A stretch of 35,858 nucleotides of DNA, taken from the NCBI GenBank assembly GCA_030682715.1, contig JAUXNQ010000003.1, positions 1 through 35,858 on the forward strand, in the 5' to 3' direction. This document shows positions 10,834-32,316 of this stretch, one piece after another. The notes under the pieces were generated by a model. It searched no databases. It was not told where the DNA came from and worked only from the letters and a program-made list of their open reading frames with translations. How positions within the stretch are numbered: the first letter of the stretch is position 1; every line of letters begins with the position of its first letter. Origin of the DNA: Methylotenera sp. (GTDB lineage Bacteria > Pseudomonadota > Gammaproteobacteria > Burkholderiales > Methylophilaceae). Position numbers and translations under genes: made by a program.

Positions 10834-12000
10834 CTAAAGTAGGTTGATATTATGGCGGATTCCCTGTGACTTCTCTCCTAAGTGTAGCTCTAGATCGTGG
10901 TTTATCTCAGACAACTTGCTGTTGGCCTGCTTAACTTCGCGGCTGAGACGGATGTTTTCCTGCTTCAGTTCATAGCGCTGGAACGCTTCACGTATATCGT
11001 CACGCAACGGCTCATCTTCCCACAACTTGGTGCGAAACTCGATAGTATTATCGGTGACTGATTTAAGCTCTGTGTGGTCTGACAGTACTATACGTACGAT
11101 ATCGGGATGGAGTTGCTTGGCCCGGCGCAGGAATTCGACTCCAGTCATTTCCAGCATACTCCGTTCAGAGATGATGACCCCAACGGGGTAGGTGGCCAGC
11201 AACTCAAGCCCCTCCATCCCAGTGGATGCAGTGAGAATATTATAGCCCTCACTATGCAATAAACGTTTTAACGATGCGACAATATTCGCCTCGTCGTTCA
11301 CCAGAAGTAGTGTCCGTTGAGTACGTTCCCCGCCCTGTCGTCGTGTGGGGAGGCCTGGAAACGTCCGTAATAGCATAGAAAATTCATCAGGAGGTATCGG
11401 TCGACTCAGAAAGTAACCCTGCATTTCGTTACAACCATGCCTGGCGAGGTAACCTAATTGCCCTTCTGTTTCCACCCCCTCAGCAATCACACTTAACCGC
11501 AATTCATGCGACATGCTGACAATGGAGCGTACCAAAGCAGCAGCATCAGGATCGGTCGTAATTTCCTGTACGAAAGACTGGTCGATCTTGACTGATGTTA
11601 CCGGAAAACGCTTTAGGTAGCTGAGCGAGGAATAACCGGTACCAAAATCATCCACCGATAAGCCAATATGCATTTTACGAAAGGCGCTCAGGGTACTAAC
11701 AATTTCCTCACCGCCCCCCATGAGCAGGCTTTCAGTTAACTCAAGTTCTAACAGGTTAGAATCGAGTTTTGTCTCATGTAGTACTCTTGCCACTACATCG
11801 ACAATGTCGTTCTGCATGAATTGGCGTACCGATAGATTAACTCCCATGCGCAACAGTGGTAATCCTTCTCGTTGCCAAGCTACAGCTTGGCGGCAGGCGG
11901 TTTCCAATACCCACTTACCTATTTGCACGATGAGGCCAGTTTCCTCAGCGATCGGAATAAATTCAGCTGGTGATATCATGCCCAACTTGGGTGTACCCAA
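10834..12000 (-). CDS. C-terminal part (EAL-receiver) of a frameshifted globin-PAS-GGDEF-EAL protein
   Basis: This 388-codon frame continues the protein encoded at 11976-13562. It lacks the start of the EAL domain and begins in the middle of the motif [15 protein letters not shown]; its TTG at 12000 is not a natural start. EAL motifs are intact: [36 protein letters not shown] and QGYFLSRP. A receiver-like domain follows (about 228-335 of this frame), in which the phosphoacceptor Asp is replaced by Glu ([13 protein letters not shown]), the acidic pair is NDE, and the Lys remains. A short coiled coil ends the protein. Restoring one base near 11990 (CCCAAG to CCCAAAG) joins the two halves into about 909 aa. 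It is either a pseudogene or a sequencing error; a free EAL fragment is unlikely to be translated well. Confidence 0.8.
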
Positions 12001-13562
12001 CGTAACAATGCTTCGGCGCCAATGATATGGCCAGTCACAAGGTCAGCTTGTGGCTGGTAATGCAACAAAAATTCGTTTTTTTCGAGCGCGTAGCGTAGCT
12101 GACTTTCGAGAAGCATGCGACGTAGTGCGGAGGCATTCATCTCGTAGGTAAAAAATTCCATACGATTTTTGCCACTATCCTTGGCGCGATACATGGCGGT
12201 GTCGGCATTTTTTAGCAGGGTTTGAATATCAACGCCATCTTTTGGATAAACGCTGATCCCTATGCTGGCGGTAAGTACAAGCTCGTGTTCTCCTATGGTG
12301 TAGGCTCTGGCCAAGCTTTCCAGTACCTTATTTGCTACATTTGCAATATTGTCCGTTCTGCTGATGCCTGCCAGCATGAGTACGAATTCATCGCCACCTA
12401 ATCGGGCAACGGTATCTACTTCACGGACGCACCCAGTTAGACGTCCGGCAGCCGTTTGCAATACAGTATCGCCGATATCATGCCCAAGGCTGTCGTTAAC
12501 GACCTTAAAACGGTCGAGATCAAGAAAGAGAATTGCCACCATGTTGCCTTCACGATCTGCAAGTGCCATGGCCTGCCGCATGCGATCCTGTAACAGAGTG
12601 CGATTAGGCAGGTCGGTTAATTCATCATGGGTGGCTTGATAAGTAAGCTTTGCTTCAGATTCTTTCAGCGCGCTAATATCCACTATTAGCCCACGCAACG
12701 AAGGTGCCCGGCCATCGCTCCCAGGCACCACGCTGATGCGCTCATGCACCCAGAGTATACGCCCGTCAGCGGCAACCACCCGGTACTCCATTTCATGATC
12801 TCGACCTGCTGCAATTTCCTGCATACAGAAACCAATAGCAGATTCGCGATCTTCAGGCAGAATAAGGTCACGCCAGAAGTTAGGTTCATGTGTCCAGCGT
12901 TCCAGCGGATAACCGAGCATTTCCAAGGCTTGCGGGCTGACGAAGGTAAACTGCATGGTGGTGATATCTGCCTCCCACACAATGGCATCAATGCCTTCTA
13001 TCAGATTGCGTTTAGTGAGCTCAAGTTGTGTAATCTTTCGCTTATCGGCATGGATGTAGGTGTCGATTGCCAACTCCATGTCGAACATGACTATTTTCAT
13101 TAACGCATCAAAGGAGGCGCAGAATTTCTCGACATTATTGCCAGTCACCTGCAATATTAAAGGCAAAAAGAAAGAGAGGTATTTCCGATAGGCACCGATG
13201 TACCATTTGGGATCAAGCCCCACCTGCTGATGCACCACTCCAACTCGCAAGCGTTGCTGTACATACTGCTCGCCGTATTTACCGCAGCCAAGCTGGCTGA
13301 AGTGAGTAGCCTGAGTCTTCTTCAAGCGCTCCAGCACTTCGACATCTGGCACCAAGGCAGCCATCTCTGGGAAGCTGAGTATATGACTGTAGAAAGCAAC
13401 GGCAAAGTCTTCACCAACCTCCAACATGTGTACATGTAACTGCCGCAGCAGTTCAACATCGGCATCGGTGAATTCAAGAAAGGATTTTCGGCGGGCTATT
13501 TCGGCATTATCAATGCCTAGTTCCTGCGCGATGGTTGTGATAATGCGAGCGTCCGGTTTCAA
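11976..13562 (-). CDS. Globin-coupled sensor diguanylate cyclase, N-terminal part of a frameshifted gene
   Basis: A 528-codon frame. Residues about 1-170 form a globin-coupled-sensor domain: [20 protein letters not shown] (103-122) has the proximal heme-ligand His at 111, and FYSHI (57-61) supplies the usual B-helix Tyr. A PAS domain follows (about 190-300), then an intact GGDEF cyclase (ARLGGDEF, 389-393) with the RxxD feedback site REVD (380-383). The frame breaks just after EALLRWVHP, where the EAL phosphodiesterase begins; the remainder lies at 10834-12000 in the next frame. Heme sensing of O2, NO or CO is inferred from family knowledge (DosC-like). The cyclase half is complete and could still work. 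Start is TTG at 13562 with GGGGA seven bases upstream. It is the last gene of a three-gene cluster, 98 bp after the ANTAR regulator. Confidence 0.85.
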
Positions 13563-13660: not shown

Positions 13661-14236
13661 TCATCTGAACAGAATATCTTCTCCAGAAATCACACGTTGT
13701 GCCACAGCATTAATTTTAACTCTCTGACTACGGACATAGTTACGTAGCGCTTTGAATGCATCCGCCCGGTTAAGCCGATGACATTGCATGATGATTCCGA
13801 TGGCCACATCAATTTCACGGTTACTTTCCATAGCTACTACAAGATTTGAATTGATATCTTCGAGTTTTTCCAGATCATCTGCTCTGGCTAGTGCAATTTC
13901 AATAGCAGGTATCATGCGCCTGATTTCAACTGGCTTTACCAGATAACCTAACGCACCCAACGCTTTTGCCGATTGCACGCTTTCTTCATCGCTGTAGGCA
14001 GAAAGAAAAATGAATGGCGTCTTGGATTCTTTCCTTAGAACTTCGGCTACTTCGAAGCCACTCATCTCTGGCATGCGGATGTCGAGAATCGCCAGCTCTG
14101 GATTTTCACGTTTGCAGATCTGCACGGCAAGTTCGCCTCTGTCTACCTGCAATACCTGATAGCCAGCCTGGCGCAATCCCATACCAATGGTGGCTAGTAC
14201 TACAAGATCATCGTCTACTACCATGATTTTTTGCAT
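13661..14236 (-). CDS. Response regulator with receiver and ANTAR RNA-binding domain
   Basis: A 191-aa regulator: receiver domain (about 1-120) with acidic residues VDDD at 7-10, phosphoacceptor Asp52 in LAILDIRMPEMSG and Lys101 in LVKPVE, all intact; then a coiled coil and an ANTAR domain (about 130-187, with AIGIIMQCHRLNRADAF). ANTAR proteins bind paired hexaloop RNA hairpins and prevent transcription termination. It lies 15 bp downstream of a HisKA_2-type kinase, the class that pairs with ANTAR regulators in the EutW/EutV system, so phosphotransfer between them is the natural inference. Its RNA target is unknown; I saw no A1/G4 hexaloop pair in its own operon. It is the only undamaged gene of the cluster. 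Confidence 0.88.
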   Translation of the reverse strand: MQKIMVVDDDLVVLATIGMGLRQAGYQVLQVDRGELAVQICKRENPELAILDIRMPEMSGFEVAEVLRKESKTPFIFLSAYSDEESVQSAKALGALGYLVKPVEIRRMIPAIEIALARADDLEKLEDINSNLVVAMESNREIDVAIGIIMQCHRLNRADAFKALRNYVRSQRVKINAVAQRVISGEDILFR

Positions 14237-14251
14237 AAGATCAAAATCTCT

Positions 14252-14974
14252 TTATTGAGTCAAAATGGTAACGATGGGCGGAAACAACAGCAAACTTGCT
14301 GTCATTACGTCATTGTCAAAAATAAATGTTAGCTTAGCCCCCTTGCTCGGCAACATGGAACGTACCAGAGTAAGACCGGTGCCCAGCCCCGTATCAGATT
14401 CAAAATTTAACTCAGGGGGCGTATTCGTACATTTGTTGCTCACTTTGAGAATGGCCGAATCGTTTTCAATGTCAATGCTCACACTGATTTTATGCCATCC
14501 CTCCTCTATTTTTCCGTGCTTGAGCGCGTTGGTGATTAGCTCATTGACAACCAATGCGATGGGAACAGCCAAATCTTTTTCTAGCAGGACAGACTGCGTT
14601 TGTTTCACTTCTACGGTAGGGTCGATAATGACGTTCGCTACCTGACTAGTGGATTTGCAGATTTCGGAGGTCACCTCGCACAGCTGGATGTGGTTTTGAT
14701 CCCCCTTACCCACTAAACCGAATACGATCGCAAGCGACATGATTCTGGAATTGATGTCCTCAATTAACGTCGCAAGTTCAGGGTGCTCGTAGGCTTGGAG
14801 ATCAAGTAGCCCGATCATGCCTTGTAAATTGTTCTTAACACGATGGTGTACCTCGCGTACGAGGGTATCTCGCTGTTGTTCCACCTTTAGCAGTCGCATC
14901 TGCTCAGCCTGCCTGCGCTCGGTGATGTCGCGGATGAAACAGAAGAATTTATCGCGGATGGCAAGATAATTCAC
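14252..14974 (-). CDS. HisKA_2 histidine kinase core, downstream of an in-frame stop
   Basis: This 240-codon frame is the C-terminal part of the sensor kinase that starts at 16702. The open frame in fact reaches back to 15007, just after an in-frame TGA (15008-15010), and reads KNGTLLDVEVSVNYLAIRD, i.e. the second half of a PAS domain, then the PAC end FIRDITERRQAEQ. The HisKA_2 H-box REVHHRVKNNLQ (40-51), a conserved ATPase N-box NELITNALKHG and a GLGTGLTL G-box follow. It might be translated alone from the GTG at 14974 with a truncated PAS, giving a soluble kinase without its membrane sensor. It lies 15 bp before the ANTAR regulator, its likely phosphotransfer partner. Confidence 0.8.
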   Translation of the reverse strand: MNYLAIRDKFFCFIRDITERRQAEQMRLLKVEQQRDTLVREVHHRVKNNLQGMIGLLDLQAYEHPELATLIEDINSRIMSLAIVFGLVGKGDQNHIQLCEVTSEICKSTSQVANVIIDPTVEVKQTQSVLLEKDLAVPIALVVNELITNALKHGKIEEGWHKISVSIDIENDSAILKVSNKCTNTPPELNFESDTGLGTGLTLVRSMLPSKGAKLTFIFDNDVMTASLLLFPPIVTILTQ

Positions 14975-15007
14975 GCTGACTTCAACGTCTAATAGGGTGC
15001 CATTCTT

Positions 15008-16702
15008 TCAGCGGTGGCAGGTTTCGAAAAAATCACTACCAGTAGCCATGATGTGATCAATATGCTGTGCCGTCTGCTCAGGGGTTTCGTTGGCCTCTAT
15101 ATCGCGCACCGACATGCCTAGTATCTCCTCGCGCGTATAGCCCACCATGCGGCAATAAGCCGGATTGACATCAATGAAACGGCAATTTTTATCAACAATG
15201 AAGAAGCCATCAATGGCTGTATTTAAGATAATTCGGTTGGACTGTTCGCTCTTTCGAAGTGCAGTCTCCGCAGCTTTACGCATGCTAATATCGTTAATGG
15301 AGATGATGTCAATGCGCTGTGTACCCATCTGTAAGGAATTTAAAGTAATTTCGACCGGGATCATCTCGCCATCCTTATGCATAGCGATGCACTCCTGAAT
15401 CGGAGGTATATTCCGCGCCTTCGGACTGCGCTTGAGATAGAGTTGGTTAATGGTCGGGATCAGAGTGCTGATGTTATTTCCCAAAAGCGCTTTCAGCGAA
15501 TAGCCAAAGACGCGCTCAGTCACGGTATTGGCATAAATAATGACACCGTCCATGTCAGTTAGCATCGTCGCGACCTGTGATGCATCGACCACTGCTCGTA
15601 CTTGTCTGGCTTCGGCCTCTTTGCGGTCGGTGATGTCGGTAAATATCACAAGGTGGTTCGTTTGAGGCGATGTTTTGTTATCTATTGCGCAGGATGACAG
15701 TAGCACAGGGAAAATATGTCCAGACTTGTGTTGACCTGAAATTTCTCCGCGCCAGCATCTAGCTCCATTTTCTGAATTAGACGGCTCTAAGTTCTGAGTC
15801 TCAGGAAAGATCAGACTAGATGGCTTCCCAATCACCTCCTCAGCAGCATATCCCGTGACATGGGAGAAGAAAGGGTTAATTGATAAAATCCGATGGTCAG
15901 AGTCAGTAATCATGACGCCTTCGGCCATCATATCAAATAGACCAGAACCCAGTTGGAGCTCGGTCTTTACTCTGGATGTATTCGTTCGAATCCCAAAGTG
16001 TGAAACGACAATGGATAGTATTAGCAATGCGATAGATATAAACGCAACCATGGTTGCCAACCCGTCTTGTCCCACAGATGAATGTCCTGAGATGCATACG
16101 CTGGCTGGGTGAAAAATTGAGGCTTTCATGCCGGTGTAATGCATCCCCGAGATGGCTACTCCCATGATAATCGAGCTACTGATTTTCCGGACTCGATCAC
16201 TCAAATGCAACAAGATGGCGGTTTGCTTTGAAGCCAGCCATAATGATATGCCAGATGCCAGAATAGCAATTACGACTGAAAATCCGACAAGGACAGGATT
16301 GTATGTAATCGGTGGCACCATCTTGATGGCCGCCATGCCGAAATAGTGCATAACAATAATACCTAAGCCCATAACAAGAGCACCAACAATCAGCCATTTT
16401 CTGTTCAAACTCTTCTGCAGCAAGTACAACGCGACATAAGAAGCAAGAACTGCTGCAAACAGTGAGCCAATCGTGATAGGTATATTGTAAAACAGAGGGA
16501 CTGGTCCATGAAAAGCCAGCATGCCGATAAAATGCATAGCCCAAATACCTACGCCCATGACTAGCGAACCGGCAAAAATCCAGTACCTGAGTACCCAACC
16601 AGAAAGCTTGAGGATATGGGAAGAAAGACTCAGAGCCGCATATGATGTCAGTATGGCGATAACAACTGAGAGCAATACAAGACTGATATCGTAACTGTAC
16701 AT
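15008..16702 (-). CDS. MHYT-PAS membrane sensor, N-terminal part of an interrupted hybrid kinase
   Basis: 564 codons ending at a TGA inside the third PAS domain. Residues about 1-230 form a seven-helix MHYT domain with three copies of the motif (MHFIGM, MHYFGM, MHYTGM), proposed in the family to bind copper and sense O2, CO or NO. PAS domains follow at about 255-365 (ending FTDITDRKEAE), 370-480 and 490 onward (FIDVNPAYCRMVGYTREEI). The frame then reads FFETCHR-stop-KNGTLLDVEVS in the same phase, so a single base change in one Arg or Trp codon would restore a protein of about 816 residues with its kinase core. The ATG is preceded by AAGGAG. This is the first gene of the minus-strand signalling cluster. 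Confidence 0.82.
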   Translation of the reverse strand: MYSYDISLVLLSVVIAILTSYAALSLSSHILKLSGWVLRYWIFAGSLVMGVGIWAMHFIGMLAFHGPVPLFYNIPITIGSLFAAVLASYVALYLLQKSLNRKWLIVGALVMGLGIIVMHYFGMAAIKMVPPITYNPVLVGFSVVIAILASGISLWLASKQTAILLHLSDRVRKISSSIIMGVAISGMHYTGMKASIFHPASVCISGHSSVGQDGLATMVAFISIALLILSIVVSHFGIRTNTSRVKTELQLGSGLFDMMAEGVMITDSDHRILSINPFFSHVTGYAAEEVIGKPSSLIFPETQNLEPSNSENGARCWRGEISGQHKSGHIFPVLLSSCAIDNKTSPQTNHLVIFTDITDRKEAEARQVRAVVDASQVATMLTDMDGVIIYANTVTERVFGYSLKALLGNNISTLIPTINQLYLKRSPKARNIPPIQECIAMHKDGEMIPVEITLNSLQMGTQRIDIISINDISMRKAAETALRKSEQSNRIILNTAIDGFFIVDKNCRFIDVNPAYCRMVGYTREEILGMSVRDIEANETPEQTAQHIDHIMATGSDFFETCHR

Positions 16703-18412: not shown

Positions 18413-21034
18413 ATGACTATTGCGCCACCTTCCAATGTTTCTAGCTCTTTAGCACCCAACATAGAAAGTCACACGCCCATGATGCGCCAGTACCTTGGCT
18501 TAAAGGCGCAGCATCCTGATATGTTGTTGTTTTATCGTATGGGTGATTTTTATGAGCTATTTTTTGAAGATGCTGAAAAAGCCTCTCGGTTGCTTGGCAT
18601 TACCTTAACGCAGCGTGGTAGTAGTAACGGACAGCCCATTAAAATGGCAGGGGTGCCTTATCACGCAGCCGAGCAATATTTAGCTAAGCTAGCTAAAATG
18701 GGCGAGGCGGTCGCTATCTGCGAGCAAGTGGGTGACCCAGCCACCAGTAAAGGCCCAGTAGCGCGTGAAGTGGCGCGTATTTTAACGCCAGGTACGCTCA
18801 CTGATGCGGCATTGTTAGATGAATCTCGTGATAACCAATTACTCAGTATTTTTCAGGCGAACGGTGTTGTTGGTTTAGCGCGTTTAAATTTAGCCTCTGG
18901 TAGTTTTATTCTGAGTGAAATCGCAGTGGGTTTATTAGCGCAGGAAGTTGAGCGCATTGCACCTAGTGAAATATTGCTTTCGGATGACTTTCAACATGCT
19001 TCACTGAGTGCCAGTAAAGTGGCTAAACGGCGCTTAAGTACATGGCAGTTTGATTTTGATAGTGCATTTAGTACGCTAACTAAACAGTTTAATACTTATG
19101 ATTTAAATGGTTTTGGCTGTGCCGATATGCACCCTGCGATTTGTGCGGCAGGTGCTTTGCTCGATTATGTGAAACATACGCAGCGCACCACTTTGCCACA
19201 TATCAATGCCTTAAGTGTAGAAACGACCAGCGCCTATTTGCAGCTTGATGCTGCAACTAGACGTAATCTTGAAATTGATTTGACCTTACGTGGCGAGGCT
19301 AGCCCTACGCTTTACTCCTTGCTGAACACTACCCAAACAGCGATGGGGTCACGCTTGTTGCGGCATTGGCTACACCACCCCTTGCAAGACCGTAATTTAG
19401 TGATGAAACGTCATGACGCGGTTGCAGGTTTGATACAAACCAACCAACACTTGGGTTTACGGCAGACTTTAAAATCTGTGGCCGATATTGAGCGTATCAC
19501 TGCGCGTGTTGCCCTTAAAACAGCGCGCCCGAGAGATTTGTCTGGCCTAGCGGTGAGTTTGCAACAATTACCTTTGTTGCAAGCACAACTTAATCAGCAA
19601 GCTGCCAGTTTATTGCAAACCTTAGCTAGCAATCTAATACCATCCACTGCGGTAGTAAATTTGCTTACCACGGCCATTAAAGCGGAGCCTAGTGTCGTGC
19701 TCCGTGAGGGCAGTGTGATAGCGGATGGCTATGATGCCGAGCTGGATGAGTTACGTGCGATACAAACTAATCATGGTGAGTTTTTGTTGCGATTTGAAGC
19801 GGCAGAAAAAGAGCGAACAGGGATTACCAATCTTAAGGTGGAATACAACAGCGTACATGGTTTCTATATAGAAATGAGTCGCACACAGGCGGAAAGTGCG
19901 CCAGCAGAATATAGACGTCGCCAAACCCTTAAGAACGTAGAACGATTTATTACCCCTGAACTTAAAGCGTTTGAAGATAAAGTACTCAGTGCTAATGACC
20001 GCGCTTTAGCCCGTGAAAAAATGTTGTATGAACAGGTATTAGTAGCACTTGGGCAATATCTCTCGGCATTGCAAACCAATGCAGGGGCGGTGGCTAGTTT
20101 AGATGTGCTGTGTTGTTTTACCGAACGTGCCATCAGTTTAAATTATGTAGCGCCTACGTTTACAACCGAGGCTGGGTTAGAAGTGATTAATGGCCGTCAC
20201 CCTGTGGTTGAGCAGATTTCTATGCAAGCTTCAGGTCAGCCCTTTATTGGCAATGATGTATCACTTAACCCTTATCGTCAATTATTGCTGATTACAGGCC
20301 CGAATATGGGTGGTAAATCTACCTTTATGCGACAAACTGCTTTGATTGTGTTACTGGCGTATTGTGGCTGTTATGTGCCAGCAACTTCAGTAAAAATTGG
20401 TGAAATAGACCGCATCATGACCCGTATCGGTGCATCGGATGACCTTGCAGGCGGGCGTTCAACCTTTATGGTAGAAATGACCGAAACCGCTAATATTCTA
20501 CATAACGCAACTGATAAGAGTTTAGTGCTGTTAGATGAAATCGGGCGCGGTACTTCTACCTTTGACGGTTTAAGCTTAGCGTGGGCGGTTGCCAAGCAGT
20601 TGTTAGAGAAAAATCGCGCTTATACGTTGTTTGCTACGCATTATTTTGAGCTGACGCGCATTGTTGATGAGTTTAAATATGCAGCCAACGTGCATTTAGA
20701 TGCAGTGGAGCATGGCAATAATATTGTGTTTATGCACAAAGTTGAGGAAGGCGCAGCGAATCAAAGCTATGGCCTGCAAGTTGCGCAACTTGCGGGGATT
20801 CCTAAGCCCGTTATTAGTGCGGCTAAAAGAAAATTAGCACAATTAGAGCTAAATCAGGTGGCTAATCAAGATGCAACGGCAGTACCGCAAGTCGATATGT
20901 TCATGATGAACGAGCAGCTTGAGGACGCTCCATTACATCCAGTGCTCGCTGAATTAGAGTCGCTACAGGTTGATGACCTCACGCCTAAGCAGGCTTTAGA
21001 TATGCTGTACAGGCTAAAAGCGGCTGTCAATTAA
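18413..21034 (+). CDS. mutS: DNA mismatch repair protein MutS
   Basis: An 873-aa MutS of normal length. The mismatch-wedging F-x-E motif is GDFYELF (45-51). The ATPase has Walker [10 protein letters not shown] (about 629-637), the conserved segment [18 protein letters not shown], Walker B with the signature [14 protein letters not shown] (about 705-718) and the FATHYFEL histidine switch. It recognises mismatches and small loops and recruits MutL. The ATG start gives about 20 extra residues before [16 protein letters not shown], common in betaproteobacteria. There is no lesion, which is notable because the adjacent DNA on the left (pntB remnant) is damaged. It is followed by the regulatory region of the nitrate locus. 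Confidence 0.97.
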
Positions 21035-21161
21035 GTGTAGGAATGACAGCCCATGTTTGTAAAAGCTAGTTAGCAAGCCAAAGTTACTACCTCCGTTATT
21101 TACTCTCAACCTTGGGGCGCATCATTAAGTGCGCTTTATCTTGATACAAGAGTGAGCGTGC

Positions 21162-21176
21162 GCACCTTATTTGTGC
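21162..21176 (+). promoter_or_regulatory. NtrC-type enhancer site upstream of nasT
   Basis: GCAC-CTTATTT-GTGC is a perfect match to the NtrC core GCAC-N7-GTGC. It is centred about 120 bp upstream of the predicted transcription start of the sigma-54 promoter at 21262-21279, a typical enhancer distance. A second, weaker dyad, GCGCA-N8-TGCGC, lies at 21117-21134. Confidence 0.7.
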
Positions 21177-21261
21177 AAATAGCCAACGCTGAAGCTATTG
21201 CCTTAACTTCATAAAACACGCTATTGCATATTAAACAAGTGCTTAAGCTGTATTTTTGTAG

Positions 21262-21279
21262 TTGGCACAGCTATTGCTT
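21262..21279 (+). promoter_or_regulatory. Sigma-54 (RpoN) promoter of nasT
   Basis: TTGGCAC-AGCTA-TTGCTT matches the -24/-12 consensus TGGCAC-N5-TTGCW, with GG (21264-21265) and GC (21276-21277) separated by exactly 10 bases. Transcription should begin near 21289, about 22 bp before the nasT ATG. It implies nitrogen-limitation control by NtrC of nasT and, by readthrough, of nrtABC. Confidence 0.82.
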
Positions 21280-21310
21280 ATATTAGCTCAGTCGATTGAG
21301 TTAAGCTGCT

Positions 21311-21886
21311 ATGTTAAAAGTAATGATTGTTGATAATAATTTGGAGCGTGTTAAACCACTCAAGCAGTCATTGCTTGATAACGGTTACGACGTGATTGCG
21401 CATCTAAGAGATACTATCAACTTAAATGATGCATGCAGTAAATTGCAACCAGATGTTGTGGTGATTGATACAGATTCACCAAGTCGAGATACTTTAGAAC
21501 ATATCTGTGTCATGACGATGAATGACCCACGTCCTGTGATGATGTTTACACATGACGGTGATAAAGAGCAGATTAAATTGGCAACGCAAGCAGGTGTGTG
21601 TGCTTATGTGGTAGGTAATTTACCCAATGAGCGTTTGCAACCAGTGATTAATGCAGCGGTTGCTAGGTTTGAAGAATTTAAGAATTTACGTGTTGCCTTG
21701 CAAGAGGCTAATACCAAGTTAAGTGAACGTAAAGTGATTGAACGCGCAAAAGGTTTGATCATGAAACAGCGCAACGTTGATGAAAATGAAGCGTATAGCA
21801 TGTTAAGAAAGATGGCGATGGAAAAACATACGCGCATCGGGTCTTTAGCAGCACAAATTGTTGAAGCAGCACAGTTGCTACTTTAG
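21311..21886 (+). CDS. nasT: NasT-type ANTAR antitermination regulator
   Basis: A 191-aa regulator: a receiver-like domain (about 1-120) and an ANTAR domain (about 130-190, ERAKGLIMKQRNVDENEAYS). The receiver is degenerate as in known NasT proteins: the segment VVVIDTDSPSRDTLE keeps an Asp, but the acidic pocket reads VDNN and the usual Lys is replaced (VVGNLPNERL). NasT proteins are controlled by the nitrate-binding protein NasS rather than by phosphorylation; no nasS is found in this window. Its expected target, a hexaloop leader, starts about 40 bp past its stop codon, before nrtA. It is expressed from a sigma-54 promoter. The family assignment is firm; the signal input here is unresolved. 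Confidence 0.9.
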   Translation: MLKVMIVDNNLERVKPLKQSLLDNGYDVIAHLRDTINLNDACSKLQPDVVVIDTDSPSRDTLEHICVMTMNDPRPVMMFTHDGDKEQIKLATQAGVCAYVVGNLPNERLQPVINAAVARFEEFKNLRVALQEANTKLSERKVIERAKGLIMKQRNVDENEAYSMLRKMAMEKHTRIGSLAAQIVEAAQLLL

Positions 21887-21927
21887 CTGATAAAAAATTT
21901 AAGCATTTGTTGGTGGTTGAGTCCAAA

Positions 21928-22020
21928 AGTCCAATGACGGACTGGTGAACTAAATCATCCAAGCAGTAAAGAAGAGCCAATGGTGGCTCAGATCATGTAA
22001 TACAAGACAAAGGCGTCTTG
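21928..22020 (+). ncRNA. ANTAR-responsive leader RNA with three hexaloop hairpins
   Basis: Three hairpins carry six-base loops with A at position 1 and G at position 4, the ANTAR recognition signature: AGTCC-AATGAC-GGACT (21928-21943), GAGCC-AATGGT-GGCTC (21974-21989) and CAAGAC-AAAGGC-GTCTTG (22003-22020). Hairpins 2 and 3 are 13 bases apart, the arrangement expected of an ANTAR pair; hairpin 1 is an extra, 30 bases further up. Hairpin 3 uses bases 22012-22020, which also form the 5' arm of the terminator, so the two structures exclude each other. Binding of NasT to the hairpins would keep the terminator open and allow nrtABC transcription. Confidence 0.87.
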
Positions 22021-22077
22021 ATAAGCAATTAACTCTTTCATTTAGGGTTAGTTCAACTTATCAGACGCCTTTTTTTT
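22012..22077 (+). terminator. Regulated intrinsic terminator before nrtA
   Basis: GGCGTCTTGATAAG (22012-22025) pairs with CTTATCAGACGCC (22057-22069), one bulged base, a 31-base loop, followed by eight T residues (22070-22077). It is the attenuator of the nrt operon. Its 5' arm overlaps the third ANTAR hairpin. Confidence 0.9.
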
Positions 22078-22119
22078 ATGAATTTTTTAGATTGTTTGGA
22101 TTATTTTAGGAGATCTAAG

Positions 22120-23424
22120 ATGGGCAATGACAATATCAGTAACAAAGTAATTACGTTGGATCAGAAGCCAGATGTGGTGGTTGATCCTGCGAGACGTGAC
22201 TTTTTTAAAATGAGTGCAGCGGGCGCATTTGGAGCAGCAGCCATGATGGGGTTAGTACCAAACGGTATTCGTACACAAGCGTATGCAGCAGGATCTGACG
22301 CGCCAGAAATTACTGATGTAAAAATTGGTTTTATTCCACTCACAGACTGTGCGCCGATTATCGTGGCGGCAGAAATGGGCTTTGATAAGAAATACGGCAT
22401 CAAAATTACCCCTTCAAAAGAAGCGTCATGGGCGGCAGTGCGTGACAAAGTATCTAATGGTGAGTTGCATGCAGCACATATTCTGTACGGTATGGTGTAT
22501 GGCGTACAGCTAGGCATTGGCGGTCAGCAAAAAGACATGGCGATGCTCATGAGCTTAAACAATAATGGGCAAGGCATTACACTTTCTAGCCAGCTCAAAG
22601 AAAAAGGTGTGAAAGATGGTAAGAGTCTTAAACGTTTAATTGATAACGAAAACCGCGACTATACCTTTGCACAAACTTTCCCAACTGGTACACATGCAAT
22701 GTGGTTGAACTACTGGTTAGCTGCAAACGGCATCAACCCAGTAAAGGATGTAAAAAACATTGTAGTGCCTCCACCGCAAATGGTGGCCAATATGCGTATT
22801 GGTAATATGGATGGTTACTGTGTTGGTGAGCCTTGGAACGCTAGGGCGATTTTCGATAAAGTAGGATTTACTGTCGCAACAACACAAGATATCTGGGTAG
22901 ATCATCCTGAGAAAGTGTTAGGTAGTACTGCTGAGTTCGTAGAGAAGAACCCAAATACTGCACGTGCAATGATTATGGCGATTCTTGATGCATGTCGTTA
23001 TATCGATGCTACAGAAAACCGTGCGAAAGTGGCTAAACTGATTTCAGGTAAAGCTTACGTCAATGCACCAGAACAAGTGATTGCAGGCCGTTTTGTGGGT
23101 GACTACGACAATGGCAACGGCAAAGTATGGAAAGACCCTAACTACATGAAGTTCTTTAGTGACGGTAAAGTGAACTATCCATATTTATCTGATGGTATGT
23201 GGTTCTTAACACAGCATAAACGTTGGGGCTTGCTCAAATCTGATCCTGATTACTTAGGGGTTGCCACTAAGATCAACCAAGTAAAACTTTACTCTGAAGC
23301 TGCATCGCAACTAGGGATTAGTGTGCCGAAAAGCGCGATGCGTAGCAGTAAGTTAATGGATGGCGTAGTGTGGGATGGCTCTAATCCAGCTGCTTATGCT
23401 GCATCGTTCAAGATTAAAGTGTAA
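22120..23424 (+). CDS. nrtA: NrtA-type nitrate-binding protein of an ABC transporter, Tat-exported
   Basis: A periplasmic substrate-binding protein of the NrtA/nitrate-sulfonate-taurine class, 434 aa. I choose the ATG at 22120 because AGGAG (22108-22112) lies seven bases upstream; an earlier in-frame ATG at 22078 abuts the terminator T tract and has no ribosome site. The N-terminus has a twin-arginine signal, ARRDFFK (24-30) with a hydrophobic stretch, and probable cleavage near AYA-AG (about 55-57). Family motifs include IGFIPLTDCAPIIVAAEMGF and the TGTHAMWLNYWL segment. It should capture nitrate (possibly nitrite) for NrtB/NrtC. It is controlled by the leader at 21928-22077. A cytoplasmic NasS role is unlikely given the signal peptide. 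Confidence 0.9.
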   Translation: MGNDNISNKVITLDQKPDVVVDPARRDFFKMSAAGAFGAAAMMGLVPNGIRTQAYAAGSDAPEITDVKIGFIPLTDCAPIIVAAEMGFDKKYGIKITPSKEASWAAVRDKVSNGELHAAHILYGMVYGVQLGIGGQQKDMAMLMSLNNNGQGITLSSQLKEKGVKDGKSLKRLIDNENRDYTFAQTFPTGTHAMWLNYWLAANGINPVKDVKNIVVPPPQMVANMRIGNMDGYCVGEPWNARAIFDKVGFTVATTQDIWVDHPEKVLGSTAEFVEKNPNTARAMIMAILDACRYIDATENRAKVAKLISGKAYVNAPEQVIAGRFVGDYDNGNGKVWKDPNYMKFFSDGKVNYPYLSDGMWFLTQHKRWGLLKSDPDYLGVATKINQVKLYSEAASQLGISVPKSAMRSSKLMDGVVWDGSNPAAYAASFKIKV

Positions 23425-23469: not shown

Positions 23470-24312
23470 ATGACAAATACTGTAAATAAAATAATGCCTA
23501 CCGCTAAACCTTTCTCTTTAAGCAGTTCTCGTAGTTTAAATACGCAGGCTTATCGCTTTTTTGGATGGGTGCTGCCGCCAATTTTTGGGTTGTTCTTGCT
23601 GGTTGTAATTTGGGCCTTGATAGCAGAACATACACCAGAGTTGCCAGGGCCAATTAAAACTTGGGTCTCTGCGGTTGAATTGTTTAGTGATCCGTTTTAC
23701 GACCATGGTATCAATGATAAAGGGGTGGGTTGGAATATCCTGGCATCACTGCAACGTGTTGGTTTGGGTTTTGGCTTAGCTGCATTAATTGGTATCCCGC
23801 TTGGTTTTATTATCGGCCGTTTTGAGTTTGTGGCAAGAATGACTGCGCCAGTGATCAGCTTGTTACGTCCGGTCTCACCACTTGCATGGTTACCAATTGG
23901 TTTGCTGGTGTTTAAAGCAGCAAATCCTGCGGCGATATGGGTAATCTTTATTTCGGCAGTATGGCCCATGATTATCAACACAGCAGTTGGCGTAAGTAAA
24001 GTCCCACAAGACTATATGAACGTGGCTAAAGTGTTGAACCTAAGTGAATGGAAAATTGTGACTAAAATACTGTTTCCGTTTGTGTTGCCTTACATGATGA
24101 CTGGTGTGCGCCTATCTATCGGTGTTGCATGGTTAGTGATTGTTGCGGCAGAAATGTTGACAGGTGGGGTTGGTATCGGTTTCTGGGTGTGGGATGAGTG
24201 GAATAACTTAAATGTTGAACACATCATCATCGCAATTTTTATTGTAGGGATTGTTGGTTTGTTGCTTGAGTTAATGCTCACGCAAATCGCTAAACGATTT
24301 AGCTACGAATAA
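23470..24312 (+). CDS. nrtB: NrtB-type ABC transporter permease
   Basis: A 280-aa inner-membrane permease of the BPD/SsuC-like family, with about six transmembrane helices and the coupling-loop region ISAVWPMIINTAVGVSKVPQ contacting the ATPase. It forms the channel of the nitrate importer with NrtA and NrtC. AAGGAG stands a few bases before the ATG; the gap to nrtA is 45 bp and to nrtC 28 bp, consistent with one operon. A cytoplasmic tail of about 30 residues precedes the first helix. Substrate assignment comes from the neighbouring genes. Confidence 0.91.
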   Translation: MTNTVNKIMPTAKPFSLSSSRSLNTQAYRFFGWVLPPIFGLFLLVVIWALIAEHTPELPGPIKTWVSAVELFSDPFYDHGINDKGVGWNILASLQRVGLGFGLAALIGIPLGFIIGRFEFVARMTAPVISLLRPVSPLAWLPIGLLVFKAANPAAIWVIFISAVWPMIINTAVGVSKVPQDYMNVAKVLNLSEWKIVTKILFPFVLPYMMTGVRLSIGVAWLVIVAAEMLTGGVGIGFWVWDEWNNLNVEHIIIAIFIVGIVGLLLELMLTQIAKRFSYE

Positions 24313-24340
24313 CACACTTAAATATCCTTTAGGAACGATC

Positions 24341-25144
24341 ATGGAAAAAGCAAACGCTGACAAATATGTACAACTAGAGCACGTGGATATGACCTTTAAT
24401 ACCAAAAAAGGGACATTCAATGCGCTTAAGGGTATTAATCTTAATATTAAAGAAGGCGAGTTCATTTCAATTATTGGGCACTCTGGTTGTGGTAAATCTA
24501 CAGTGCTGAATTTAATCGCAGGCTTGTTGCAACCGTCAGAAGGCTTGTTGTTCTGCGCAGGCCGTGAAATTGCAGGGCCTGGGCCTGAGCGAGCAGTCGT
24601 GTTCCAAAATCACTCTTTATTACCATGGCTAACTTGTTTTGAAAACGTGTATCTCGCAGTAGAACGCGTATTTAGCACCGAGACCAAAGCACAACTTGAG
24701 GCGCGCACGCATGCCGCTATCGAGTTGGTAGGGCTGTCACACTCTAGCGACAAACGACCTAATGAAATTTCAGGTGGGATGAAGCAGCGTGTTGGCATTG
24801 CCCGCGCTTTGGCCATGGAGCCAAAGGTACTGCTATTAGATGAGCCATTTGGTGCGTTAGATGCGCTAACCCGCGCTAACTTGCAAGATGAGTTGATGAA
24901 GATTATGGCGAAGTCAGGTTGTACCGCAGTGATGGTCACGCACGATGTGGATGAGGCTGTATTGTTATCAGACCGTGTTGTGATGATGACTAACGGACCA
25001 AGTGCAACTATCGGCGAAATTCTAGAAGTTAAATTGCCGCGACCAAGAGCACGTTTAGCATTGGCAGAAGATCAAGAATATAACCATTTACGTAGTGAAG
25101 TATTGCGCTTCTTATATGAGCGCCATGCTAAAAAATCAGCATAA
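24341..25144 (+). CDS. nrtC: NrtC/NrtD-type ABC transporter ATPase
   Basis: A 267-aa single-domain ATPase: Walker A GHSGCGKST (about 46-54), Q-loop VFQNHSLLPW, signature EISGGMKQRVGIARAL, Walker B VLLLDEPFGALD and switch His in VTHD. It powers the NrtAB nitrate importer. Cyanobacterial NrtC carries an extra C-terminal NrtA-like regulatory domain; this protein lacks it and by length resembles NrtD, so it probably acts as a homodimer. AGGAACG precedes the ATG. The name nrtC is used for position in the operon only. Confidence 0.9.
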   Translation: MEKANADKYVQLEHVDMTFNTKKGTFNALKGINLNIKEGEFISIIGHSGCGKSTVLNLIAGLLQPSEGLLFCAGREIAGPGPERAVVFQNHSLLPWLTCFENVYLAVERVFSTETKAQLEARTHAAIELVGLSHSSDKRPNEISGGMKQRVGIARALAMEPKVLLLDEPFGALDALTRANLQDELMKIMAKSGCTAVMVTHDVDEAVLLSDRVVMMTNGPSATIGEILEVKLPRPRARLALAEDQEYNHLRSEVLRFLYERHAKKSA

Positions 25145-26665: not shown

Positions 26666-26699
26666 AATGCACCATTGTGGAATTCCATAATGGTGCATT
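26666..26699. promoter_or_regulatory. 34-bp near-perfect palindrome: tandem NtrC sites or terminator
   Basis: AATGCACCATTGTGGA continues into TTCCATAATGGTGCATT; all positions pair except one G-T. There is no T tract after it, which weakens a terminator reading. It can be read as two overlapping NtrC-like sites, TGCACC-N5-GGAATT (26668-26684) and AATTCC-N5-GGTGCA (26681-26697), lying about 100-135 bp upstream of a sigma-54 promoter. An mRNA-stabilising hairpin at the end of the nrt transcript is also possible. Confidence 0.65.
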
Positions 26700-26798: not shown

Positions 26799-26816
26799 TT
26801 GGCATAAATAGTGCAT
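26799..26816 (+). promoter_or_regulatory. Sigma-54 promoter of nirB
   Basis: TTGGCAT-AAATA-GTGCAT has GG (26801-26802) and GC (26813-26814) exactly 10 bases apart and a TGGCA -24 element. The -12 element is GTGCA instead of TTGCA. It predicts a start near 26825, about 35 bp before the nirB ATG, and a second NtrC-controlled transcription unit. Confidence 0.72.
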
Positions 26817-30621: not shown

Positions 30622-32316
30622 ATGTCACTTCAATTTACTGTAGGCCAATCAAGCCTCACTGGGCCACGTACGCGTAATGAAGATTATGTTGGTGTAGTGA
30701 CGCCATCTGGTGAGCAATTAAGTGTTAAAGGTGCACTGTTTGCAATTGCCGATGGTGTAAGTGGCAATGCTGGCGGTGGTGAAGCTTCTGAGATGACGGT
30801 GCGAACCGTCACAACAGATTACTACGCCACGCCAGACACTTGGGAACCGCTTACTTCTTTAGATAAAGTGCTGACAGCTGCAAATCGGTGGCTGATTGCG
30901 CAAGCCAATGCTAATAGCGACATGGTTGGTATGGCAACAACGCTGTCATTAATCGTGTTACGGGGGCAGCGTTATTATGCAGCTCATGTTGGCGATACAC
31001 GTATCTATCTACTGCGAAATGGCGTACTCAAGCAACTGACGACTGACCATGTTTGGGATAGACCAGATATGCGTCATGTTTTAAAGCGTGCAGTGGGTTT
31101 AGATCGGCATCTGGAAGTAGACTTCTCTGAAGGTGCATTGCAAGAAGGTGACGTGTTTGCTTTAATGAGCGACGGCGTGTGGGATAGCGTGGGTGAGCAA
31201 GGTATCCATAAGCTGTTGGGCTTATACAATAACCCACAAATGATTTGTGATCACCTCACTAAAACGGCGATTGAAAAAGGCAGTCAGGATAACTCTACTG
31301 CGGTTGTGTTAAGAGTCACAGCCTTAGGTGAAGATACGCTATTAGAGCTTTTAGCGGGTGGTAAGCACCTTGCCGTACCAGATAAGTTAAGTGTGGGTGA
31401 GCATATTGATGACTTTGAAGTACTTGAGTTGATGTATGAGTCGCGTGCCAGTTTGCTGTATAAAGTGCGGCATACTACAACCAAACAATTGTTTGTATTA
31501 AAAACCTTACAACCAGCGTTAGCAACAGACACTGAGAGCTGTCATGGTTTGTTGAATGAGGAGTGGTTAGCAAAACGTGTGGTTTCTCAGTATGTGCCGC
31601 AGGTGTTTCCAGTTTCAGTAGAGAAGCGAAGCAAGCTTTACTATGTCATGAGCTGGCACGAGGGTGCAACGTTGGAGCAACGTTTGGATAGTGGGCACCA
31701 CTTTACGGTAGCGGGTATCCTTAAAGTTGGCATCGATATGATGCGTGGTATTGGCGCCTTACATCGTCTCAATATTGTGCATAGAGATATTAAACCTGCT
31801 AATGTGCATCAAGGCAGTGATCAGCGACTGCGTATCTTAGATTTAGGCGTTGCATTGAGTATGCAAACGAATAAATCAGACGTAGTGCAAAATCCTGGTA
31901 CCCCCAGTTATATGGCGCCAGAATTATTTGATGGTGAAATGGCAACCCCCCAAAGTGATATTTATGCAGCTGGCGTTACACTGTATCATCTGCTGACACG
32001 TAAATACCCCCATGGTGAAATAGAACCTTTTCAAAATCCAAAATTTGGTAGCCCTACGGCACCGACAAGATACCGTCCAGATATTCCGTATTGGTTAGAA
32101 AACATTGTATTAAAAGCAGTTGCCACAGACCCTAAAGTGCGGTTTGAAACAGCAGAGGAAATGCTGATTGCACTTGAGCATGGTGAGTTAAAGCCAATTT
32201 TACCTCCAGCACGTACACCATTGATTGCACGTGCTAGGTTGGTTAAGTGGCAATGGATAGCGATTTTTTCGTTAATCTTAAATTTTTTATTGATTTATTT
32301 ATTAGCAGTTTCGTGA
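30622..32316 (+). CDS. Fused PP2C phosphatase-Ser/Thr protein kinase with C-terminal membrane anchor
   Basis: A 564-aa protein. Residues about 1-235 are a PP2C phosphatase with its metal residues: RNEDY (18-22), ADGVSG (Asp44), HVGDTRIY (Asp125), MSDGVWD (Asp184) and QDNST (Asp223). Residues about 262-520 are a Hanks-type kinase: Lys294 in FVLKTL, catalytic HRDIKPANV (Asp389), DLG in place of DFG (Asp407), and GTPSYMAPE. The Gly-rich loop is degenerate (MYESRASLLYKV). A single hydrophobic helix (about 543-562) anchors it with both domains cytoplasmic. The same gene fusion occurs in nitrate-assimilation operons of other proteobacteria (for example near PA1781-PA1783 in Pseudomonas, from memory), but its substrate is not known to me. 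A candidate is the transporter or reductase encoded beside it. Confidence 0.9.
   Translation: MSLQFTVGQSSLTGPRTRNEDYVGVVTPSGEQLSVKGALFAIADGVSGNAGGGEASEMTVRTVTTDYYATPDTWEPLTSLDKVLTAANRWLIAQANANSDMVGMATTLSLIVLRGQRYYAAHVGDTRIYLLRNGVLKQLTTDHVWDRPDMRHVLKRAVGLDRHLEVDFSEGALQEGDVFALMSDGVWDSVGEQGIHKLLGLYNNPQMICDHLTKTAIEKGSQDNSTAVVLRVTALGEDTLLELLAGGKHLAVPDKLSVGEHIDDFEVLELMYESRASLLYKVRHTTTKQLFVLKTLQPALATDTESCHGLLNEEWLAKRVVSQYVPQVFPVSVEKRSKLYYVMSWHEGATLEQRLDSGHHFTVAGILKVGIDMMRGIGALHRLNIVHRDIKPANVHQGSDQRLRILDLGVALSMQTNKSDVVQNPGTPSYMAPELFDGEMATPQSDIYAAGVTLYHLLTRKYPHGEIEPFQNPKFGSPTAPTRYRPDIPYWLENIVLKAVATDPKVRFETAEEMLIALEHGELKPILPPARTPLIARARLVKWQWIAIFSLILNFLLIYLLAVS

Follow-up and report, generated by a model that had tools for sequence, protein, structure and literature searches.

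A probable NasT-read antiterminator with three hexaloop hairpins between nasT and nrtA in Methylotenera

Results

The nasT-nrtA locus

The stretch of DNA analysed in this study (hereafter, the window) is 35,858 nt long and belongs to a Methylotenera sp. genome (G000; 2.45 Mb, assembly 95% complete). Three hairpins, H1 to H3, and an intrinsic terminator lie between nasT and nrtA (Table 1). NasT is up to 98% identical to the NasT of named Methylotenera (Methylophilaceae) relatives. The leader is preceded by mutS and then nasT; nrtA is the first gene 3' of the switch, and is followed by nrtB, nrtC, a protein matching Alginate_exp, nirB, an MFS transporter, a protein with PP2C/kinase matches, and a nitrate-reductase-like molybdoenzyme, the last two named from models under their cut-off. 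The PP2C-type phosphatase and Ser/Thr kinase matches (below cut-offs) fall within a single protein at 30622-32316, between transporter and reductase. The nrtA gene likely starts at 22120, with GGAG ahead and a twin-arginine signal; the start at 22078 in the list of open reading frames is not favoured. Elsewhere in the window, a protoglobin-PAS-GGDEF-EAL-receiver protein (10834-13562, minus strand) is apparently split over two overlapping frames, with the EAL match cut at about profile positions 39-42; this may be a frameshift or an assembly error.

Table 1. Features of the switch and its neighbouring genes (positions in the window)
Feature	Position	Strand	Evidence
Sigma54 -24/-12 element TGGCACAGCTATTGCT, 5' of nasT	21263..21278	+	0 mismatches
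nasT, receiver-ANTAR protein, 191 aa	21311..21886	+	Pfam ANTAR E 5.6e-18, Response_reg E 4.3e-8
H1 plus basal helix (further pairs beneath the hexaloop stem)	21915..21956	+	fold -12.0 kcal/mol; flank pairing in relatives
H1, AGTCC-AATGAC-GGACT, additional upstream hairpin	21928..21943	+	hexaloop AATGAC
H2, GAGCC-AATGGT-GGCTC	21974..21989	+	hexaloop AATGGT
H3, CAAGAC-AAAGGC-GTCTTG, antiterminator hairpin	22003..22020	+	hexaloop AAAGGC
Intrinsic terminator overlapping H3	22009..22077	+	3' arm 22062-22072; T run (T8) to 22077
nrtA, nitrate ABC transporter binding protein, twin-arginine signal	22120..23424	+	Pfam NMT1_2 E 2.8e-108
nrtB permease and nrtC ATPase	23470..25144	+	TIGR01183, TIGR01184 above cut-off

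The sigma54 element, 48 nt upstream of nasT, is the only 0-mismatch match in the window, where matches with up to 2 mismatches number 32 against a chance expectation of 30. About 90 bp 5' of it, at 21162..21176 (plus strand), a GCACC-N5-TGTGC motif was seen by eye, which we take to be a possible NtrC-like site. Of 55 family loci, 50 had an element with 0-1 mismatch 29-65 nt 5' of nasT (the nasT start being set at 576 nt before the stop for this count), and these include 48 of the 50 family leaders with H3. A separate promoter between nasT and nrtA, searched for as a sigma54 type, was rejected; in the stretch from the final 60 nt of nasT to H3, a sigma54-like element occurred in only 1 of the 50 (L020). 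This position of the element across the family indicates that the leader is most likely an attenuator inside one nasT-nrtABC transcript. We infer that nitrogen limitation starts transcription, and that NasT decides whether it continues.

L020 (G137), from a Methylotenera relative, has a longer gap of 409 nt between nasT and nrtA. A sigma54-like element lies within this gap, 173 nt past the nasT stop and ahead of a three-hairpin leader, while the one 5' of nasT carries 2 mismatches; in L020 the switch may have come under a promoter of its own. Upstream of nirB (window 26668-26697 and 26800-26815), inverted TGCACCAT...ATGGTGCA sequences were noted by eye as possible nitrogen-regulator sites, together with a sigma54-like element with 2 mismatches; no A1/G4 hexaloop of at least 5 bp was found in this upstream region.

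Three hexaloops and an exclusive terminator

The initial annotation had described three stems with six-base loops, A1 and G4 in each loop, 13 bases between the last two hairpins, and a following terminator with 8 T; all of this could be read in the sequence. The closing C-G pair is also present in all three hairpins (3/3). By coordinates, the H1-H2 linker is 30 nt (21944-21973) and the H2-H3 linker 13 nt (21990-22002). An overlap of H3 with the terminator had been placed at 22012-22020; the overlap stood, but its true extent is wider, as the terminator 5' arm starts at 22009. The arm pairs through 22009-22018 and 22020 with the 3' arm, with a weak extension at 22004-22007/22074-22077. The basal helix of H1 had been omitted.

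Folding of growing transcripts gave H1 and H2 a probability of 1.00 at 10/10 lengths; that of H3 fell from 0.99 at 22062 to 0.03 at 22068 and 0.00 at 22074. Thus, H3 and the terminator are mutually exclusive, and once the 3' arm is made the terminator displaces H3 alone. Folding of 21915-22085 gave z = -6.2 versus shuffles. In RNAfold, H2 appears with a sixth pair and a tetraloop; its hexaloop would therefore be the protein-bound form, by analogy.

A1/G4 hexaloops with at least 5 contiguous Watson-Crick pairs number 8 on the plus strand of the 35.9-kb window (10 when G-U pairs may extend the stem), and 3 of the 8 lie here within 93 nt. Three A1/G4 hexaloops within 100 nt were found in 0/100 dinucleotide shuffles of the window, and no such cluster was formed by other position-1/position-4 base combinations on either strand. 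A search of 21000-23000 against Rfam returned 8 matches up to E 10, all far under their gathering scores; the leader has no threshold match.

Conservation of H1 in the genus and family

NasT was found at E 1e-30 or better in 54 of 150 family genomes. The family loci examined numbered 55, and the H3 pattern was present in 50 of them; L019, L051, L053, L059 and L060, which lack it, were dropped, while L052 and L055 (the second copy in its genome) were kept. At least one A1/G4 hexaloop upstream of H3 occurs in 49/50 leaders. At least two occur in 40/50 at a stem threshold of at least 3 Watson-Crick pairs, in 27/50 at 4 and in 11/50 at 5, against 0.75, 0.05 and 0.01 of 50 in shuffles and 3, 1 and 1 for the best among 15 other loop classes. 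H1 is not universal; 10/50 leaders have fewer than two upstream hexaloops at 3 or more pairs. Seven-base A1/G4 loops apparently take the H2 position in L022, L023, L056 and L058 (by eye).

Because this count itself selects for pairing, two further tests were applied. One was a genus alignment (plain MAFFT) of 12 of the 14 leaders from L006-L018 plus L020; L007 and L013 were left out as near-duplicates, and the same-genus L019 (leader cut), L022, L023 and L028 stood outside it. All three hairpins are kept in 12/12 leaders, and the closing C-G of each is invariant. Pairs changed on both sides number 4/5 in H1, 0/5 in H2, where 4/5 pairs are invariant, and 1/6 in H3. The invariant columns of H1 are the closing C-G, A1 and G4. 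H1 cells are paired at 88.3%, the outermost pair being unpaired in 6/12. When partners were slid, pairing over all three helices fell from 95.8% to 25-44%, a comparison in which the structure, drawn from one row, favours the unslid version. The covariation score was reached in 0/500 alignment shuffles. Pairs changed on both sides numbered 5 versus 3.3 in shuffles (reached by 21/500); further pair types showed no excess (8 versus 8.8; 467/500).

The other test concerned the flanks (20 nt outside the H1 stem, 12 nt outside H2). For it, H1 was defined as hexaloop number two when counting upstream from H3; in L017 this is the near hairpin. Pairing of the H1 flanks with their own partner gave -8.07 kcal/mol versus -4.68 when swapped, a difference reached by 0/5000 permutations (31 distinct of 40 leaders); the family values for H2 were -1.71 and -1.21 kcal/mol. 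The initial annotation had taken H1 for an additional site, to be refuted if relatives conserved neither H1 nor A1/G4; H1 withstood this check. A second upstream hexaloop is found in most family leaders, its basal helix is kept, and in the genus its pairs covary and A1 and G4 are invariant. Compensatory pair changes around an invariant A1, G4 and C-G, together with the conserved basal helix, show that H1 is a selected RNA structure.

Leaders outside the family

In a class-wide sample, NasT was found at E 1e-30 or better in 76/369 genomes, G000 included. An automatic detector reported a hexaloop-terminator leader at 32/75 class loci and 0/75 shuffled loci. At least two upstream hexaloops occur in 14 of these 32 leaders when stems need 3 or more Watson-Crick pairs, against 0.23 in shuffles and 1 for the best other loop class; at 4 or more pairs the figures are 10, 0.03 and 0. 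A search with a pattern that ignored H1 and H2 gave matches in 15/369 class genomes and 26/398 phylum genomes, two samples that overlap; its reversed-pattern control gave 0. Matches with the loop AAGGGC resemble coding sequence and were dropped.

Together with loci L118-L142 (L136 left out), these searches gave 80 leaders, which were reduced to an outside set of 60 non-redundant ones, mostly from outside the family; it includes unnamed or loosely named MAGs, which presumably lie outside the family, and one Methylophilaceae leader, L202 (the count below was repeated on the 59 others). Sites were scored at 4 or more Watson-Crick pairs as near (-36..-12 from the H3 loop) or far (-90..-41). Both were present in 16 leaders, only the far one in 18, only the near one in 16 and neither in 10; the far group holds the odd cases L129, L137, L141 and L234, and the "neither" group the likely false leaders L227, L157 and L166 as well as L229, a three-loop leader with stems below the threshold. 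The far site thus occurs in 34/60 (shuffles 1.37, largest 5) and the near site in 32/60 (shuffles 0.72, largest 3); 26/60 have no far hexaloop at the threshold used. Hexaloop positions form two peaks relative to the H3 loop: 27 fall between -30 and -21, and 24 between -70 and -51. Among far loops, AATGGC, AACGGC, AACGAC and AACGTT predominate, closed by CC/GG or TC/GA, and the flanks of the far hairpin pair at -7.42 with their own partner versus -5.80 when swapped (0/5000, n=33).

Three-loop leaders also occur in records named as gammaproteobacterial MAGs (L121, L126) and Poribacteria (L133, L138). In the six three-hexaloop leaders preceded by a sigma54-like element (0-1 mismatch), 20-38 nt separate the -12 element from the first hexaloop. 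In far-only leaders, the intervening stretch often folds as a hairpin without an A1/G4 loop: in the 15/18 folded (L137, L141 and L234 were left out), mean z was -1.48, ranging from +0.21 to -4.17, and two were not below shuffles. Under relaxed rules, a near A1/G4 hairpin appears in 2/18 far-only leaders (L158, L242); L152 carries one of 3 bp at -42.

Several single loci deserve mention. The Caballeronia sp. SBC1 plasmid (L213) carries two hexaloop leaders on opposite strands of one 8.6-kb region around nasT, with the distant hexaloop at -43 and -59 and the near one absent by the detector; by eye, this is the far-only layout with an intervening hairpin. L202 (G010) apparently has four A1/G4 hexaloops, at -101, -58, -19 and 0, in a leader that sits behind its own sigma54-like element (by eye). 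At the Paracoccus pantotrophus locus (L212), the detector found no attenuator within 4 kb either side, so its hairpins could not be counted as a yardstick.

NasT and the nitrate signal

A conserved lysine of receiver domains has a role in phosphorylation. NasT has glycine (G102) at this position, where EutV has lysine, and the glycine is invariant in 13 NasT sequences. This makes ordinary phosphorylation of NasT doubtful, and its receiver is probably a pseudo-receiver. Among proteins of known structure, the best relative is EutV (6wsh/6ww6; E 5.4e-23), which has been solved in complex with RNA and aligns over the length of NasT. Contacts of EutV with G4 are described for R142, K149, E160 and Y164, and M172 is described as essential (PMC8934654); the counterparts R140, K147, E158, Y162 and M170 of NasT are invariant in the 13 sequences, the correspondence having been counted by hand with the solved chain numbered 2 ahead of the paper. 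An EutV triple mutant in N173/R175/R177 lost binding (PMC8934654). By the same hand count, EutV N173 and R175 are not kept in NasT, which has E171 and H173 there; only R177 has an arginine counterpart. By analogy with EutV, NasT would be the ligand of the leader loops.

NasS is absent next to nasT in the window, and a separate NasS was not found in the genome: PF13379 finds NrtA and one weaker match of 35 bits (cut-off 24.7), and Paracoccus pantotrophus NasS as query matched only NrtA. The only strong NrtA/NasS-type protein of the genome is thus the twin-arginine NrtA; among 60 family genomes, a clearly better NasS-like match was present only in G042.

The genome encodes four other receiver-ANTAR proteins, one in the window (13661-16702, minus strand) and the others on C2, C12 and C67. 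One of the four adjoins HisKA_2 and MHYT-PAS proteins (Pfam), and three adjoin PAS/histidine-kinase-like or chemotaxis-like proteins (by reading translations). Another ANTAR protein as reader was considered and rejected; the detector gave no leader within 1.5 kb of the four genes, or within the shorter distance available where a contig ends (L005).

Discussion

The leader is probably a transcription attenuator in the nasT-nrtABC operon that is read by NasT, with three hexaloops rather than two for NasT to dock on. The initial annotation had proposed an antiterminator of the ANTAR type before nrtA, and the hexaloops, the exclusivity of H3 and terminator, and nasT directly 5' support it. In the proposed mechanism, the sigma54 promoter would transcribe nasT and continue into the leader. 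Without active NasT, H1 and H2 would form, the terminator would unzip H3, and transcription would stop before nrtA. Nitrate would render NasT active; NasT would then dock first on H1, the earliest hexaloop to leave RNA polymerase, supported by its own basal helix. It would pass from H1 to H2, or a second NasT would join on H2, and would be at hand as H3 emerges; NasT on H3 would stop the terminator from closing. With such early docking, the role of H1 is most likely to raise the local amount of NasT and to lengthen the loading time before H3 is made.

Stepwise hand-over of EutV was reportedly proposed by Walshe et al. In that proposal, EutV loads onto the first hairpin and is then transferred to the second, the dimer being unable to hold both (PMC8934654). 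Free Paracoccus NasT is described as an oligomer broadly consistent with a hexamer (PMC3795266). Either hand-over or a NasT oligomer could make use of a third loop. Published data on spacing bear on the pairing of the loops: EutV elements have 5-12 nt naturally, with function strongly reduced at 14 nt and lost at +20 nt (PMC3369931, PMC8934654), and a curated survey of actinobacterial ANTAR RNAs demanded a linker length of 2-25 nt (PMC8164766). The H2-H3 linker lies inside this survey range and the H1-H2 linker outside it; the latter also exceeds the spacing functional in EutV, which counts against a simple H1+H2 pair. Further points against the preferred reading are the leaders that lack H1, the two EutV binding residues not kept in NasT, and the failure to find a separate NasS. 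The initial annotation had assigned the working antiterminator to H2+H3 and taken H1 as an add-on giving higher affinity or room for a second ANTAR protein; this division of roles may hold, but 18/60 leaders of the outside set have a far hexaloop and lack a near one at the threshold used. In SELEX, NasR selects A1/G4 loops closed by C-G, and it binds two hairpins ~12-fold tighter than one (PMC7496416).

A broader reading can be offered only tentatively. Leaders of this type may comprise three positions, a constant H3, a near site with its loop ~20-30 nt before the H3 loop, and a far site at ~50-70 nt, of which bacteria keep either or both upstream ones. The far site might act through stepwise hand-over of NasT or through an oligomer clamping three loops, and in far-only leaders a spacer hairpin might bring it close.

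Rather unlikely, in our estimate, is that H1 serves as an alternative partner of H3, the unit being any two hexaloops and the three-loop leader a redundant or transitional form linking the near layout (H2+H3) with the distant one (H1+H3). Far-only and near-only leaders occur about equally often (18 versus 16 of 60), and most of the 15 far-only leaders folded have a hairpin in the H1-H3 interval by which the path could be shortened. However, some far-only calls are doubtful (L158, L242 and L152), and the 12 aligned genus leaders are all three-hairpin and show compensatory change in H1, which argues against a passing state.

The boldest rival for the Methylophilaceae leaders, which we also consider unlikely and place just behind the last, is that H1 and H2 act jointly as a sponge for NasT at the 3' end of terminated nasT mRNA, holding back NasT and setting a threshold. 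As nasT lies upstream of the terminator, probably on the same transcript given the family-wide position of the sigma54 element, the terminated mRNA would end with two free NasT hexaloops, and H1 and H2 do remain folded in the terminated form. EutX RNA, thought to sequester EutV, likewise has an additional single hexaloop beside its pair (PMC8934654). Against a sponge, three-hexaloop leaders exist directly behind their own sigma54-like element, where they would have no nasT coding part ahead of them (for example L199, L200), and the preferred distance from far site to H3 is left unexplained.

It is very improbable that H1 is a structural or stability element, protecting the nasT mRNA end or pausing transcription, with a hexaloop that NasT does not bind. 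The basal helix is conserved and H1 lies just behind the nasT stop codon, as such an element would have it; but such a role needs no invariant A1, G4 and closing C-G while most other H1 positions are free, and gives no reason for the excess of this loop class over 15 others. That H1 is a chance hairpin, with H2 and H3 alone mattering, hardly merits consideration: 3-bp hexaloop hairpins are common (shuffles give one upstream in 8.8/50 leaders at 3 or more Watson-Crick pairs), but covariation, flank pairing, the excess in family and outside set, and the absence of such a cluster from shuffles of the window contradict it.

The preferred reading, a NasT-read attenuator with three docking sites, can be set beside known systems. 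The ANTAR target RNA in print is a pair of hexaloops (PMC3369931, PMC3369936, PMC7496416, PMC8164766, PMC8934654). As described for Enterococcus faecalis eutP/eutG/eutS/eutA, Klebsiella oxytoca nasF and Pseudomonas aeruginosa amiE (Ramesh 2012, PMC3369931), the dual-hexaloop RNA shares with the Methylotenera leader the C-G closed six-base A1/G4 loops, the overlap of the last hairpin with an intrinsic terminator, and an ANTAR protein encoded nearby. The Methylotenera leader differs in its third hexaloop, 30 nt further 5' and with its own basal helix, which the 2-25 nt linker rule (PMC8164766) would not pair with H2. In the Paracoccus denitrificans NasS-NasT system, NasT likewise acts as antiterminator of nitrate assimilation genes; it binds the nasA leader RNA, in which hairpin HI is needed for expression and HII may contribute to attenuation (PMC3795266, PMC5424462). 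A NasT with receiver and ANTAR domains, encoded with nitrate genes, is a feature of NasS-NasT systems that is present in Methylotenera. Unlike in Paracoccus, nasS does not lie beside nasT and no separate NasS was found in the genome; two hairpins are named in the accessible descriptions of the Paracoccus leader, whereas Methylotenera has three hexaloops and a terminator. EutX/Rli55 (PMC8934654) resembles the leader in joining a dual hexaloop with an additional single one, but it is a small RNA thought to sequester EutV, whereas the third loop of Methylotenera lies in cis on the attenuator.

No three-loop ANTAR leader was found described in the literature searched, parts of which were available as excerpts, the sole extra hexaloop there being that of EutX; papers on the Azotobacter/Pseudomonas NasT leaders may show one. 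That three-loop leaders are not the described norm, as the initial annotation had it, agrees with the published two-hexaloop element. Genomes, however, commonly carry a third hexaloop, and in this respect the window is ordinary for its family. Unless a further paper already shows it, the three-hexaloop NasT leader is new as a variant of the known two-hexaloop antiterminator.

Published ANTAR models explain in different ways why two hexaloops are needed, given that one dimer in the solved complex cannot hold both loops of one RNA. The covarying third loop and the far-only leaders are natural variants with which simultaneous binding, stepwise hand-over and an oligomer clamp could be told apart. 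Linker limits applied to ANTAR RNAs would leave part of the element undetected, and if the three-position reading is true, surveys for two hairpins with a short linker would have overlooked the far site. Many relatives retain the extra hairpin, so that the usual view of the nitrate switch as a two-hairpin device looks incomplete. In Methylotenera itself, a switch located inside the operon and behind a sigma54 promoter probably gates the uptake of nitrate.
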